Part shown: one piece after another, positions 6,448 to 12,175 of the stretch | Layout of the letters: each line of letters starts with the position of its first letter | Position numbering within the stretch: position 1 is the stretch's first letter | NCBI GenBank assembly: GCA_903882745.1 | Contig: CAIRYG010000005.1 | Location: 248,001 to 312,000 of the forward strand | DNA from: an uncultured Gemmatimonadota bacterium | Lineage (GTDB): Bacteria > Gemmatimonadota > Gemmatimonadetes > Gemmatimonadales > Gemmatimonadaceae | Direction: 5' to 3' | DNA: 64,000 bases | Made by a program: the position numbers and the translations under genes | The notes under the pieces: generated by a model | Told to the model about the DNA's origin: nothing | The model's input: only the letters and a program-made list of their open reading frames with translations | Database searches by the model: none

Positions 6448-8313
6448 CTAGCAGCTCTTACACTTGTGGTTATTCTTGGCGCCCAGCTTCTCAAGATGCG
6501 CCAACGTCTCAACAAAGGGCGGGATACGCTGCACCGGCCCATTCGCCATATCAGCGGTCGTCTGTCCCTTGCGCGAGACGGCCATGATATCGACCCCCTT
6601 CGACACGAGATAATCAATCAGCTGATCATCGCCACGAGCGGCAGCATGATGGATCGCGTTATAGCCGTTGAAGTCGCGGGCGTTCGGATCGAGGTGCAGG
6701 TCCTCAATCAGATACTTCACCGCGGCCATCCACGAGTCCGGCGCGTGCATGTGCGCGTTCGCGGCATAGCCTTCGCCGTACCCCACACCGCTCGCGGCGT
6801 GCAGCGGATACACCCCGGGACCGCCGGCCGGAATCGGCGGCAATCCAGACTTGTCACCAGCGGTGCTGTCGGCATCCGCGGGGCCCGCGTCGTCGCCGAG
6901 CGTGCGGCCCACCGGCTTCTCTGTCGGGATGTTCGGATCAGCGCCGTACTTGATCAGCATCTTCATGGCCGGCACGTCGAGCCCGTAGGCGGCGCGCCAG
7001 AACGGCGTTGACCCCTGCGTGTTCACGCCGAGCAAATCGAAGTTGTACGACATGTACCAGAGATGCTTCTTGAGGCGCACATTCGGATCAGCGCCAGCCT
7101 TCAGCAGCGCCTCCATGAGCTCCAAGTGGGTCGTCTGCTGTTGCTGCTGAGCGACCGGCTGCGGATACAGCGACTTCGGCGCCCACTGCACATTGATGGT
7201 CGCGTACAGCGGCGTCGCGTTGGCATCGCTCGCGAGCTTCGGGTTCGCACCCTTCGCCAAGAGCATCTTTGCCAGGTCGAACTGGCCGTTGATCGTGGCC
7301 ATAAGCAGCGGGCTGCTGTGGTCACCGGCACTCACCTGATTCACATCAGCGCCGGCATTGAGCAGCACCTCGGCGGTCTTCATATTCCCCTCGCGCACGG
7401 CGAACAGGAGCGGCGTCAGCCCACCCTTGTTCCCCACGAGGTCGCCATAGCTCGCGCCACGCGTACCGATCGCCATGCCACCGCTCGAGTCGGACGGCGA
7501 ACCGCCACGCCCACCGCGGCCACCACCACCAGCGCCACCGCCGCGCGGCCCAGTCGCCGCGATCGGCGCGGCCGCCGCCTTCTTTGCCTGAGCGCTATCC
7601 TCGGCCGTTACCGGCGCAGTACCAGCGCCGCGCCCGGCCGGAGCCGGAGGCGCCTCGGCGGCCTTCACCGCCGCCACCTTACGCGTGCGCAACGTCAACG
7701 CCGCGCGATCGAGCTTCTCGCGAGCCGGGACGTCCTCAACCTTCGACGTCAGCTTCAGGTTCGCGCCACGAGCCGCCAGCAACTCGACCGCGGCGGTACG
7801 ATCATACGCGGCGGCCCACATGATCGGCGTCTGGCCGAATGCGGTTTCCTTTGCGTCAACCGGGGCGCCCTTGTCGAGCAGCGCGGCGACAATCGCCTTA
7901 TCACCAAGCGACGCGGCAAAGTGCAGTGGTGTCGTGCCACCCGACGACGTCGCGGCCTTCACGTTGGCCCCCGCATCGAGCAATGCCTTGACCGCCGCAA
8001 CGCTTCCGCTGCGCGCCGCCAGATGCAACGGCGCATAGCTCCCATTGCGCGTCACGGCTTCGAGTCGCGCGCCAGCCGCGACCAGCATCGTCACCGTTTC
8101 GGCGTCGCCCGACATCGCGGCCCAGTGCAACGCCGTCATGCCGTCACCCTGAGCCGCGTTCACATCAGCACCCTGACGCAACAACGCCTTGAGGCGCGTC
8201 GCGTCGTGCTTCATCACCGCATCAGCGACCGGCGCGTCGACGGTCGTGATCGCCGCAGGAGCGGCGACCGCGACCAGCAACAGCGCCATCGCAATGAAAA
8301 CCGCCTTACGCAT
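6448..8313 (-). CDS. Secreted ankyrin-repeat protein, last gene of DUF1592 operon
   Basis: 621 residues with a signal peptide (MRKAVFIAMALLLVAVAAPAA). Ankyrin repeats fill most of the mature protein: a block from about residue 35 to 205 with GMTALHWAA, APLHLAA, TTPLHFAA and TPIMWAA; a Gly/Arg/Ala-rich linker at about 220-285; then further repeats (GGLTPLLFAV, SSPLLMATI, TPLYATI, STPFWRAA, YNAIHHAA). Ankyrin repeats bind proteins; export is unusual and suggests a periplasmic scaffold. The protein ends in HKCKSC, a CxxC at the extreme C-terminus that may bind metal or haem or form a disulphide. The start overlaps the DUF1552 stop by 8 bp, so the two are translated together. Confidence 0.9.
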   Translation of the reverse strand: MRKAVFIAMALLLVAVAAPAAITTVDAPVADAVMKHDATRLKALLRQGADVNAAQGDGMTALHWAAMSGDAETVTMLVAAGARLEAVTRNGSYAPLHLAARSGSVAAVKALLDAGANVKAATSSGGTTPLHFAASLGDKAIVAALLDKGAPVDAKETAFGQTPIMWAAAYDRTAAVELLAARGANLKLTSKVEDVPAREKLDRAALTLRTRKVAAVKAAEAPPAPAGRGAGTAPVTAEDSAQAKKAAAAPIAATGPRGGGAGGGGRGGRGGSPSDSSGGMAIGTRGASYGDLVGNKGGLTPLLFAVREGNMKTAEVLLNAGADVNQVSAGDHSSPLLMATINGQFDLAKMLLAKGANPKLASDANATPLYATINVQWAPKSLYPQPVAQQQQQTTHLELMEALLKAGADPNVRLKKHLWYMSYNFDLLGVNTQGSTPFWRAAYGLDVPAMKMLIKYGADPNIPTEKPVGRTLGDDAGPADADSTAGDKSGLPPIPAGGPGVYPLHAASGVGYGEGYAANAHMHAPDSWMAAVKYLIEDLHLDPNARDFNGYNAIHHAAARGDDQLIDYLVSKGVDIMAVSRKGQTTADMANGPVQRIPPFVETLAHLEKLGAKNNHKCKSC

Positions 8314-9697
8314 GAGACGAGAGGTTCAGGGTTCCGGTGCTGTCACCGAGCGTCTTCATGTCGTTCACGCCGAGCGTGTGCATCATGCTCAGCATCGCAT
8401 TCGCCATCGGGGTGCCATCCGGCGCCTTGATGTGCACGTTGCCGCCCATCCGGCCGTCGGCCTTGCCCACCACGATCAGCGGGCAACGGCGATGGCTATG
8501 CAGGTTGCTGTCGGCCATCGGCGATCCGTAAATGATCATCGTCTTGTCGAGCAGGTTGCCATCATTTTCCTGAATCGCCTTGAGCTTGTTCAGGAAGTAC
8601 GGCAACTGCGCCACATGGTACTTGTTGATCATCTGGAAGTCGCTCACGCCCTTCTTGTTGCCGCCATGGTGCGACGCCGGGTGGAACGGCTTGTCGGTGC
8701 CGCTCTCCGGGTACGTACGCGCCGATCCGTCACGGCCCATCTTGAACGAGAACACGCGCGTGATATCCGACGCAAAGGCGAGCGCCTGAATATCGAACAT
8801 CACCGCCACGTGCTCCGAGAACGAATCCGGCACACCAGCCGGCGCTTCGGGCATGTCGCGCTGTTCGCCGCTCATGTTGCGGGTTTCGATCGCCTGAATG
8901 CGGCGCTCGACTTCACGGATGTCTTCGAGATAGCGGTCGAGACGGGTGCGGTCGTCAGCACCGAGTGAGCCCTTGAGCGAGACCATCTCGCCCGCGACCC
9001 AGTCGAGAATGCTGCGACGCGACTGCCGACGCGCAAAACGCTCTTCCGTTGACCCGCCAACCCCGAACAACTTCTCGAAGGCCACGCGCGGGTCGCGAAT
9101 CACGGGCAGCGGCTCCGTGGGCGAGGCCCACGAAATGGAGTCGGTGTACACGCAGGCATAGCCGTAGGCGCATCCGCCCGCCTGGTCCACATTCTCAATG
9201 CACAGCTGCATCGAGGGGATCGGCGTGGTCTGGCCAAACTTGCGGGCGTAGATCTGGTCGATCGACTCGCCCACGTGAATGTCCGACCCTTCGGTCTGCT
9301 TCGGGTGCGACTGCGTCAGGAAGACCGCGCTCGACCGGAAGTGATCGCCGCCGATTTCCTTCGGTGCGTTCGGCTCGGCTTCACGGCAATCCGTGTTGCT
9401 GATGATGGTCAGGTAGTCGCGGAACGGCTCGAGCGGGCTCAACGCCGACGGCGAGAGATCGTACGCGCGTCCCGTGGCGGCCGGTGCCCAGTAGTTCAGC
9501 GATGCGCCGAGTTCGTTGCAACCCGCCGCGCCGTGCACCATCTCGATCGCGACCATGCGCGGCGCCTGCTGCGACGTGATCCGCCACGTCGGCTTGCCCG
9601 CCGGGAACATGGCGTCGAGGAAGGGGAGTGCGACGGTCGCACCCATTCCTTGCAGGAAGGTACGACGCGGAAGTGCCTTGCCACTGATGTACGTCAT
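8306..9697 (-). CDS. DUF1552-family exported protein
   Basis: 463 residues. The N-terminus ALPRRTFLQGMGATVALPFL is a twin-arginine signal. The rest matches DUF1552 as known from Planctomycetes, Verrucomicrobia and relatives: GGDHFRSSAVFLT, SIDQIYARKFG, FEKLFG, DRTRLDRYLEDIREVERRI, DIQALAFASDITRVFSF and ASHHGG. The biochemical role of the family is not established. Members almost always sit next to a DUF1592-type protein, as here, where the gap to the upstream gene is 21 nt. Late parts (DKTMIIYGSPMAD, HSHRRCPLIVVGK) resemble DUF1501/sulfatase-fold proteins, suggesting a metal-dependent hydrolase-like fold. Tat export suggests folding, perhaps with a cofactor, in the cytoplasm. Confidence 0.9.
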   Translation of the reverse strand: MTYISGKALPRRTFLQGMGATVALPFLDAMFPAGKPTWRITSQQAPRMVAIEMVHGAAGCNELGASLNYWAPAATGRAYDLSPSALSPLEPFRDYLTIISNTDCREAEPNAPKEIGGDHFRSSAVFLTQSHPKQTEGSDIHVGESIDQIYARKFGQTTPIPSMQLCIENVDQAGGCAYGYACVYTDSISWASPTEPLPVIRDPRVAFEKLFGVGGSTEERFARRQSRRSILDWVAGEMVSLKGSLGADDRTRLDRYLEDIREVERRIQAIETRNMSGEQRDMPEAPAGVPDSFSEHVAVMFDIQALAFASDITRVFSFKMGRDGSARTYPESGTDKPFHPASHHGGNKKGVSDFQMINKYHVAQLPYFLNKLKAIQENDGNLLDKTMIIYGSPMADSNLHSHRRCPLIVVGKADGRMGGNVHIKAPDGTPMANAMLSMMHTLGVNDMKTLGDSTGTLNLSSHA

Positions 9698-9718
9698 CGG
9701 ATTCCTCGTGCTACGGGG

Positions 9719-12175
9719 TTAGCGGGTGCCGCTGGAGTTGCGTGTCGCAGCGTCGGCGGAAACTGCCGCCGGCACGCGACGCATACGGAATGCATCGCTC
9801 GATACGATGCCCATCACAAACCGGTCAAACTTGTAGCCGCTGGGTTCAGCGTCACGCTGAATCTTGCGGATGGTCGGCTGGTCGTAGAACTCCACGCGGC
9901 GCCCGAGGGCGTATGCCATCAGGTTCTGCGTGAAGGAGCGCACGATCGGCGTGGGGTGCTTGAGCAATGCGGCACGCAGTTCCGGCAGCGACGACACCGC
10001 GGAGCCATCATACAGCTGGCCTTGCGTGTCGAGCGACGCGCCGTTCTCGCGAATGCGCCACTGGCCGGTCACATCAAAGTTGTCGAGGGCCAAGCCAATG
10101 GGGTCAATGACCTTGTGGCACGACACGCACGCCGGGTTCGCCCGGTGCATTTCCATCCGCTCACGGGTGCTGAGGAAATGTCCGTCCTTGGCCTCGCCCG
10201 TCTTTTCCAGGTCCGGCACATTCGGCGGCGGCGGTGGCGGCGGCGATCCGAGGATCACTTCCATGACCCACTTACCGCGGAGCACCGGCGACGTACGATT
10301 CGCGTGCGAGGTCAGCGTCAGAATGCTGCCCTGACCCAGGAGCCCGCTCCGGCGATTGTCGGCATACTGCACGCGACGGAAGTTGCTGCCCGTGATTCCG
10401 GGCATGCCGTAGTGCTGGGCGAGCTCGTCGTTGACGTACGTGTAGTTCGCCGTGAGCAGGTCGAGCACGCTCCGGTTCTCACGCACAATGCTCATGAAGA
10501 ACAGTTCCGTCTCGTGACGCATGGCGTCGGCGAGCTGCTGACGGAAGTTCGGAAACTGCAACGCGTCCGGATGCACCTTCTCAATGTCCTGCAGGCGCAA
10601 CCACTGGGCCGCAAATCGCGTGGAGAGGGCATCACTCCGCGGGTCGGCGAGCAACCGCGCGGCCTGGGTCCGAAGTCCTTCCGGCGTGCTCAACGCGCCA
10701 GCGCGCGCTGCGGCAATCAACTTGTCGTCCGGCGGTGTTCCCCAGATGAAGAACGACAGCCGCGACGCGAGATCGGCATCGCTCACCGCAACCCGCGACC
10801 CAGCCTTGGCGCCCTTCGGAATCTCTTCAACGCGGAAGATGAAATGCGGGCTCGACAGAATCGCCTCGAGGGAGCGGCGAACGCCGATCTCGAAGCCCCC
10901 TTCCTTGGCGCCGCGATCGTAGAACTTCATCAGCCCCGCGATGTCGTTCGCATTCAGCGCCCGACGGTACGCGGCACCACCGAGGGTCGCCACAATGCGC
11001 TCCGCACAGGGCCGCGCCTCGGCCGGCGACAGCGGCCGGCAGCTGAAAATCCGCTTGCGGCTCGGCGTGTCCGACACGCCAGTCGCGTTGAACGGCCCCG
11101 TGACGGTCACTTCACGCAGATGCGCGAGCATGGTCACGCCACTCTGCGAGCCGATCTGGGTGTCAGCGATGCTGTTCGCGATCGGCGCCAGATTGTCGTT
11201 CACCGGCCCATCAAAGGTGCGGACGAACGCCGCGGTCACACGCTGTGGGCCGGCGCGGAGCTGGATGGGCGGGGTCTTCACGTCCATCCCGGTCGGGTCG
11301 GCCTGCGACATCCCGCGATCCACGGGGACAAGCGCGACCCGCTCGCCGTTGACGGAAAACTCAATCATCTCGTCGAACGGCGCAGCGGAACCAAAGAGCT
11401 GGCCGGTTGGAATCGAGTGCATCATGGTCGACAGCACGTACTGGCCGTCGGCGGGGAAGATGTGCATCACGCTGATGCCGCCGCGCGTGCCGAACGGTGC
11501 ACCCTCCACCTGGTCCATCTGGGACGCGAGCCGCGGAATCTTGTAGGTCTTGGCGGCGCGGGTGGCCTTCGGGTCGCCCACCGCCAAGCGGCTCACTTCC
11601 GCGGCAGCGTCCATGTAGGCGTCGAGCGTCGTCGCCGAGGGGACCTGCACGTCGGAGATGTTGTCGAAGTTGTTGCTCTTGGTGTCGAGCGGCAGCCACG
11701 AGCCGGCGTCAATGTCGAGCGTGAGCAAGTCGTGCACTGACTTCTCGTACTCGGAGCGGTTCAACCGCTGGAAGCTGCGCGACCCCGGGTTCGGATTGAC
11801 CGCTGCGGAGGCGTCAATCAGCCGTTCAAGGGTCGAGGCCAAGGCCGCGAGTGTGTCACCGCCGGGCTTCTCCCATCCTGGGGGCGGCATCATTCCCGCA
11901 CGGAGCTTGGCAATGATCTTTTCGGAGAGTGCGGGCGACTTGGCCGCCGCCGCCACATCAAAAGTCTCAAGCGAGAGGTCGCCGCGACGTTTGTCGTCGT
12001 TATGGCACTCCGCGCACCGCTTCTGCACCACGGACGTGAGAGCCTCTGGGGAGACAATCAGCGCGTGCGTGACAGGTGCCCGCGCGGCGACCAGCGCCGC
12101 AGGACGCACGGCGTAGGCAACACAGACGGACGCGAGCAACAGTCCGGAAACCGTTGCAACGGTGATAGCTCTCAC
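9719..12175 (-). CDS. DUF1592/1588/1587/1595/1585 protein with two CxxCH haem motifs
   Basis: 818 residues from the GTG at 12175, chosen because a signal peptide (VRAITVATVSGLLLASVCVAYA) follows and GAGAG lies about 10 nt before it; an upstream frame to 12409 is ignored. A cytochrome-like domain carries CAECH at residues 54-58. DUF1587 (FQRLNRSEYEKSVHDLL), DUF1595, DUF1592 (SRLSFFIWGTPPD), DUF1588 (HANRTSPVLRGKWVMEVILG, then CVSCHKVIDPIG with the second haem motif) and DUF1585 (TQNLMAYALGRRVEFYD) follow in the order seen in Planctomycetes. Probably a periplasmic c-type haem protein working with DUF1552. The pathway is unknown; electron transfer or polymer breakdown are guesses. Confidence 0.9.
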   Translation of the reverse strand: MRAITVATVSGLLLASVCVAYAVRPAALVAARAPVTHALIVSPEALTSVVQKRCAECHNDDKRRGDLSLETFDVAAAAKSPALSEKIIAKLRAGMMPPPGWEKPGGDTLAALASTLERLIDASAAVNPNPGSRSFQRLNRSEYEKSVHDLLTLDIDAGSWLPLDTKSNNFDNISDVQVPSATTLDAYMDAAAEVSRLAVGDPKATRAAKTYKIPRLASQMDQVEGAPFGTRGGISVMHIFPADGQYVLSTMMHSIPTGQLFGSAAPFDEMIEFSVNGERVALVPVDRGMSQADPTGMDVKTPPIQLRAGPQRVTAAFVRTFDGPVNDNLAPIANSIADTQIGSQSGVTMLAHLREVTVTGPFNATGVSDTPSRKRIFSCRPLSPAEARPCAERIVATLGGAAYRRALNANDIAGLMKFYDRGAKEGGFEIGVRRSLEAILSSPHFIFRVEEIPKGAKAGSRVAVSDADLASRLSFFIWGTPPDDKLIAAARAGALSTPEGLRTQAARLLADPRSDALSTRFAAQWLRLQDIEKVHPDALQFPNFRQQLADAMRHETELFFMSIVRENRSVLDLLTANYTYVNDELAQHYGMPGITGSNFRRVQYADNRRSGLLGQGSILTLTSHANRTSPVLRGKWVMEVILGSPPPPPPPNVPDLEKTGEAKDGHFLSTRERMEMHRANPACVSCHKVIDPIGLALDNFDVTGQWRIRENGASLDTQGQLYDGSAVSSLPELRAALLKHPTPIVRSFTQNLMAYALGRRVEFYDQPTIRKIQRDAEPSGYKFDRFVMGIVSSDAFRMRRVPAAVSADAATRNSSGTR

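Follow-up and report, generated by a model that had tools for sequence, protein, structure and literature searches.

Several phyla are rich in DUF1552 proteins and in proteins built from PSCyt and PSD domains, and we know of no function assigned to either.

In the PSCyt/PSD proteins of Verrucomicrobia and Planctomycetes the domain set is the same as in CYT, the large protein of the locus described here, and it has been noted that PSCyt3 genes usually adjoin one gene of an unknown family and that some PSCyt genes carry carbohydrate-binding modules (CBMs; He et al. 2017, PMC5615132). The main text of that paper mentions no ankyrin partner, whereas the present locus has a conserved third gene, which encodes an exported ankyrin protein. 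By domain content only, the closest experimentally studied proteins to CYT are Cbp2D of Cellvibrio japonicus and the Teredinibacter proteins TERTU_2913 and TERTU_3803 with their X183/X132 make-up (PMC10916295). The X183 haem domain of Cbp2D is able to reduce LPMOs (PMC8981238), and normal growth on insoluble cellulose requires Cbp2D (PMC12542752). These X183-DUF1587-X132 proteins have in common with CYT the DUF1587 domain, separate CxxCH c-type haem domains, a carbohydrate-binding part and export, whereas CBM2, FN3 and a YceI-like domain are features of Cbp2D itself. In the available portions of the three sources (PMC8981238, PMC12542752, PMC10916295) no DUF1552 or ankyrin partner of Cbp2D is described.

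Ankyrin proteins encoded beside a haem enzyme are reported to raise the activity of that enzyme or to promote its loading with haem (PMC4178425, PMC10294975). In the couples AnkB/KatB of Pseudomonas and Cj1386/KatA of Campylobacter the ankyrin protein serves the haem enzyme and is needed for its full activity, AnkB being periplasmic. An exported ankyrin protein is also encoded beside a haem protein here, but the partner of AnkB and Cj1386 is a catalase, whereas in the present locus it is a putative two-haem c-type protein together with a DUF1552 protein, with no catalase domain, and the ankyrin protein differs from AnkB and Cj1386 in its 621 amino acids and its CxxC end. A further analogous arrangement is the DUF1800-DUF1501 couple, found for example beside bacterial chitin synthases (PMC5122149). 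Like the DUF1592/DUF1552 couple it pairs an uncharacterised helical protein with a partner exported by Tat; the DUF1800 protein, however, lacks a haem motif and the couple lacks an ankyrin protein. The literature searched yielded no paper covering both DUF1552 and DUF1592. The DUF1592/DUF1552 couple is already known; a conserved ankyrin third member with a C-terminal CxxC is undescribed in the searched literature.

The window analysed is a stretch of 64,000 nucleotides from an uncultured Gemmatimonadota bacterium, in which three genes termed CYT, HX and ANK follow one another on the minus strand with the following features:

9719..12175, minus strand: CYT, 818 aa, GTG start; PSCyt1-DUF1587-CBM-like-DUF1595-DUF1592-DUF1588-DUF1585, putative exported two-haem protein
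12002..12016, minus strand: first CxxCH, CYT residues 54-58, unchanged in 43/43 homologues
11090..11563, minus strand: CBM6/35/36-like beta-sandwich, CYT residues 205-362, from predicted structure (VIA-align Z 10.1 to 8)
10115..10129, minus strand: second CxxCH, CYT residues 683-687, unchanged in 43/43 homologues
8306..9697, minus strand: HX, 463 aa; DUF1552 protein with Tat-type signal and predicted alkaline-phosphatase-superfamily fold
9662..9667, minus strand: twin arginine, HX residues 11-12; R11 and R12 invariant in 45/45 homologues
9341..9343, minus strand: HX His119, invariant; at the sulfatase nucleophile position as matched by eye
8666..8683, minus strand: HxxSHH motif, HX residues 339-344
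8306..8313, minus strand: overlap of HX stop and ANK start, 8 bp, ATGCGTAA; the same -8 in L002, L014, L018, L028, L030 and L045
6448..8313, minus strand: ANK, 621 aa; ankyrin protein with Sec-type export signal
6451..6462, minus strand: C-terminal CxxC of ANK (C618, C621), invariant in 44/44 aligned sequences and 59/59 trios

Only 21 bp separate CYT from HX, and the HX-ANK distance is -8 bp. The first-pass annotation had described the reading frames, their order and overlap, the export signals and the haem motifs, and ORF coordinates, Pfam and alignments agree with it on all of these. The Pfam domains of CYT are PSCyt1, PSD3 (DUF1587), PSD5 (DUF1595), PSD4 (DUF1592), PSCyt3 (DUF1588) and PSD2 (DUF1585); the last five exceed the curated cut-offs, which fits PSCyt/PSD proteins of the PSCyt3 type. 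HX is an HXXSHH protein (DUF1552, PF07586; E 7e-85; score 285.8 bits, cut-off 30), and ankyrin repeats were detected by Pfam in ANK alone among the three. The genome of about 3 Mb also encodes TatC (E 2e-53) and cytochrome c assembly proteins (Ccm machinery). A search of it for further DUF1552 or DUF1592 genes found none besides those of the trio, which is single-copy. The near-identical relative L002 (99%) is a Gemmatimonadetes MAG, and the placement of the genome in Gemmatimonadota is based on it.

From its motifs CYT may be taken to bind haem. Its structural model (mean pLDDT 81.6) places a beta-sandwich at residues 205-362, between DUF1587 and DUF1595 and between the two haem sites, which has CBM36, CBM35 and CBM6 modules as its best structure matches over the Z range listed above. 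TNF/C1q-like domains share this fold at similar Z, a TNF-family domain reaching about 8, and Pfam gave no CBM match in CYT; residues 205-362 are predicted to form a CBM6/35/36-like domain. PDB sequence searches found no significant match to either CYT or HX, and no solved X183 chain related to the first haem domain of CYT at E <= 10.

For HX an AlphaFold model of moderate confidence was obtained from 45 sequences (mean pLDDT 67.6, pTM 0.77). The best 50 matches listed belong to the alkaline phosphatase superfamily only (NPPs, sulfatases, MCR, YejM; Z 13.8 to 12.3), the top match superimposing with 4.4 A over 247 residues, at a sequence identity to the superfamily of 7-13%. Foldseek alone gave weak matches (best E 8e-3), and sulfatase/AlkP matches in a viral structure library were likewise weak. 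By this model HX has the alkaline-phosphatase-superfamily fold shared by NPPs, sulfatases and MCR, but the Ser, Thr or Cys nucleophile usual in that superfamily is not apparent in HX. As regards the two-metal site of that superfamily, HX has several conserved His and Asp residues: across Gemmatimonadota, phage, Alphaproteobacteria and Planctomyces sequences H119, H339 and H400 never vary, and H343, H344, H296, H422 and D302 hardly do. When the sulfatase motif CxPSRxxLLTG is aligned by eye with H119-FRSSAVFLTQ, a histidine comes to lie at the nucleophile position, so His119 would occupy this position and offers a lead. HX meets Tat-substrate criteria by sequence, having a twin-arginine motif (PRRTFLQG) in a genome with TatC; as a regular expression for this motif proved too strict (33/59 trios), the alignment was used (45/45). 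Tat export is consistent with HX being folded, probably around a metal, in the cytoplasm.

The same genome contains a DUF1800-DUF1501 couple (L094:56-2634; C2, about 236 kb), analogous in that one of its two proteins is of the Tat type, in which SRSHFDAQDY resembles by eye GGDHFRSSAV of DUF1552. Profile comparison, weak in that it used one sequence each, found no relation of HX or of CYT to these DUF1501 and DUF1800 proteins.

ANK begins with a hydrophobic stretch, MRKAVFIAMALLLVAVAAPAA, and ends in KNNHKCKSC. C618 and C621 of this terminus are the only cysteines in the protein, no CxxCH is present in it, and the CxxC is invariant in an alignment with a mean column identity of 54%. The role of ANK can be read in two ways, as a scaffold of a CYT-HX complex or as a maturation factor of CYT. 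The first-pass annotation contained neither this invariant CxxC nor the AlkP-type fold of HX nor the CBM-like domain of CYT.

A scan of GTDB contigs yielded 78 related loci, the relatives being Gemmatimonadota-type, with 97 DUF1552 genes. With adjacency defined as an ankyrin gene of the ANK family at most 600 bp downstream of DUF1552, ANK lies directly 3' of 89 of these genes; six others are too near a contig end and two are exceptions (L072, L075), giving 89/91 assessable cases. CYT is upstream of HX in 87/97, or 87/95 when two cases cut by contig ends are set aside. The check for a conserved three-gene order suggested by the first-pass annotation is thereby answered in its favour within Gemmatimonadota. 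The HX-ANK gap has a median of 46 bp, and ten pairs overlap. HX stands solitary in L072, and in L044 a CYT-ANK pair is found with no HX between. Many loci hold two tandem trios.

Genome distribution was examined in a sample of 150 genomes drawn across the phylum, with family ANK at E <= 1e-60 and the genome lists compared by eye. DUF1552 is present in 55 of these (1-12 copies), and family ANK occurs in exactly the same 55. Comparison of coordinates placed an ankyrin gene adjacent to 110 of 150 DUF1552 genes among the matches listed, and when eight seemingly ankyrin-less HX genes were inspected individually an adjacent ankyrin gene was found for all eight. In two of them (L097, L098) it is divergently transcribed upstream of CYT. 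Diverged paralogues have their ankyrin gene relocated to the opposite flank of CYT, where it is still adjacent. The arrangements in L097 and L098, together with L044, favour a link of ANK to CYT.

Whole CYT-HX-ANK trios are tandemly duplicated in L042, L048, L051, L052, L056, L059, L063 and L068, and some members of the class, with genomes of 2-5 Mb, carry up to 12 DUF1552 copies.

Pairwise distances of CYT, HX and ANK in 59 non-redundant trios correlate at 0.86-0.90, a value partly explained by species history. Upon swapping ANK between tandem paralogous trios the correlation fell in 8/8 loci, strongly in five, so the trios have been inherited as units. The CYT-HX-ANK gene order is far beyond chance, and the three genes have been co-selected in Gemmatimonadota. 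That they are made together, as claimed at first pass, has strong support from the conserved order, the identical genome distribution, the co-duplication and the adjacency kept after rearrangement.

Clustering of the neighbours of the related loci revealed no fourth gene that most loci share in the same orientation, and no glycan-degradation gene as a consistent neighbour of the trio. SusD, TonB receptors, a HupE/UreJ-cytochrome protein and PQQ dehydrogenases each recur in 8-18 loci only. The HupE/UreJ and cytochrome-CBB3 protein of 1043 aa (L011:4551-7679, with homologues in 14 loci) is encoded two to four genes downstream of ANK, always in the same orientation (20/20).

Outside Gemmatimonadota a search of a plasmid collection found DUF1552 in 15 records. 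A plasmid of Novosphingobium sp. KACC 22771 carries CYT-HX-ANK in identical order, its ankyrin protein having a signal-like N-terminus and no CxxC. A plasmid of Planctomyces sp. SH-PL62 (L092:3477-8081) has the arrangement DUF1587-DUF1592-DUF1552-DUF1080, DUF1080 being the 3-keto-disaccharide hydrolase family of Pfam, and in Sphingobium sp. TomTYG74 (L093:6307-9823) a CYT lacking PSCyt1 is followed by HX and a glyoxalase-family gene. With DUF1080 or a glyoxalase-family gene in third place elsewhere, the ankyrin protein is a lineage-typical rather than a universal partner: over the records examined the CYT/HX couple is general, the third gene lineage-dependent.

DUF1552 with a Tat-type N-terminus is also found alone on contigs of T4-like phages in IMG/VR (L086, L087-L089, L090, L109, L110, L111/L112). 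In L087-L089 the genes of the sliding clamp and the clamp loader are a few kb away from it, in L109 those of a major head protein and a head maturation protease are close by, and in L110 and L111/L112 it stands among tail-fibre genes. In L086 two DUF1552 copies flank a gene resembling an A-type Fe-S carrier (L086:11356-11676), which corresponds to PHROG 17776 of unknown function; given this resemblance in sequence, the neighbour is a possible hint that DUF1552 contains a metal cluster. The aligned phage HX proteins keep at least one R of the twin arginine and the three invariant histidines. Neither DUF1592 nor family ANK was found on the phage DUF1552 records, which are possibly fragments; INPHARED phages gave no match to DUF1552, and PHROGs contained no family for it. 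HX alone in phages and CYT-ANK without HX in L044 indicate that the subunits may act partly alone.

As the trio is kept together in almost all Gemmatimonadota copies examined, it very likely represents one unit outside the cytoplasm. For CYT, HX and ANK as a joint functional unit confidence is high, with support from the tandem duplication of whole trios, the swap test and the Novosphingobium trio. The best overall explanation, put forward tentatively and at somewhat short of even confidence, is a glycan-binding, electron-carrying CYT with a catalytic HX and ANK as assembly partner. CYT would be exported via Sec and receive two covalent haems, hold the substrate by its CBM-like domain and carry electrons. 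HX would be folded before Tat export, probably around a metal while still in the cytoplasm, and act as a metal-dependent catalytic subunit on an alkaline-phosphatase/sulfatase fold with a histidine replacing the Ser/Thr/Cys nucleophile; a catalytic role of HX is reasonably probable. ANK could be a dedicated exported partner docking to CYT and/or HX, its C-terminal cysteine pair helping to assemble them or to set their redox state. Such a system would probably process a glycan or glycoconjugate, by oxidation or by ester-type chemistry, and pass electrons on towards the respiratory chain. The DUF1080 gene in third position in Planctomyces also speaks for this overall reading; against it speak the moderate confidence of the HX model with its weak Foldseek matches, the sharing of the CBM-like fold with TNF/C1q-like domains, the phage HX genes and L044, and the inconsistency of glycan-degradation genes as neighbours. 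The CBM-like domain, the Cbp2D precedents and the remark of He et al. on CBMs point to a glycan-type substrate as a best guess and no more, a possibility to be held with some reserve. The periplasmic redox assembly proposed in the first-pass annotation stays plausible, being compatible with the export signals of all three proteins, with the pair of haem motifs and with the genes for cytochrome maturation; the physical complex of the three proteins that it included is something we infer, and is somewhat favoured.

Alternatively, ANK might be a maturation factor rather than a subunit, delivering haem to CYT or stabilising it as ankyrin proteins do for catalases. This is unlikely but deserves serious weight: ankyrins beside haem enzymes are reported to promote their activity or their loading with haem (PMC4178425, PMC10294975), and ANK stays with CYT where HX is missing (L044) or where ANK lies on the far side of CYT (L097, L098), but it is normally the Ccm machinery, present in the genome, that attaches covalent c-type haem, the tight or overlapping spacing is usually with HX and not with CYT, and the only two cysteines of ANK are both in CxxC, leaving no CxxCH. 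Rather unlikely, too, is that HX is an envelope enzyme sufficient in itself, acting on surface glycans as a hydrolase or transferase of the AlkP type, with CYT and ANK modulating or anchoring it instead of joining it in a redox enzyme. Such independence would suit the predicted superfamily fold, the solitary HX of L072 and the phage contigs where HX alone keeps its Tat motif and invariant histidines; it is at odds with the presence of CYT upstream in 87/95 assessable bacterial cases and with a classical nucleophile not being apparent. A respiratory or peroxide-detoxifying system, in which CYT would resemble two-haem peroxidases and the ankyrin protein would follow the catalase pattern (PMC10294975), is improbable: the motifs do predict two c-type haems, but neither CYT nor HX has a Pfam peroxidase or catalase domain, and no such fold appeared among the structure matches, which cover mainly CYT residues 202-365. 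A merely incidental position of the ankyrin gene can be dismissed almost entirely, since, common as ankyrin genes are in these genomes (first-look candidates from few to more than 100 per genome), it is one specific family that is adjacent in 89/91 assessable cases, with identical genome distribution and adjacency after rearrangement, and the rarity of ankyrin genes next to DUF1552 that the first-pass annotation had named as grounds for calling the third gene incidental is not what was found.

Beyond the preferred reading of a glycan-binding CYT, a catalytic HX and an assembly partner ANK, it is conceivable, as a speculation of low probability, that the trio represents an undescribed class of envelope oxidoreductase, in which an AlkP-fold HX would serve as a metal redox enzyme with histidine for the nucleophile, connected electronically to a two-haem CYT that would bind glycan, and an ankyrin protein with its cysteine pair would take care of assembly; phages would then have taken the catalytic subunit, perhaps for remodelling the host surface.

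With a compact single-copy trio, a predicted fold for HX, a CBM-like domain in CYT and a third partner at hand, the function of these domains has now become testable. The trio gives clear predictions for haem and metal and a defined cysteine pair, and the single-gene copies in phages provide a second, smaller handle on the function of DUF1552.
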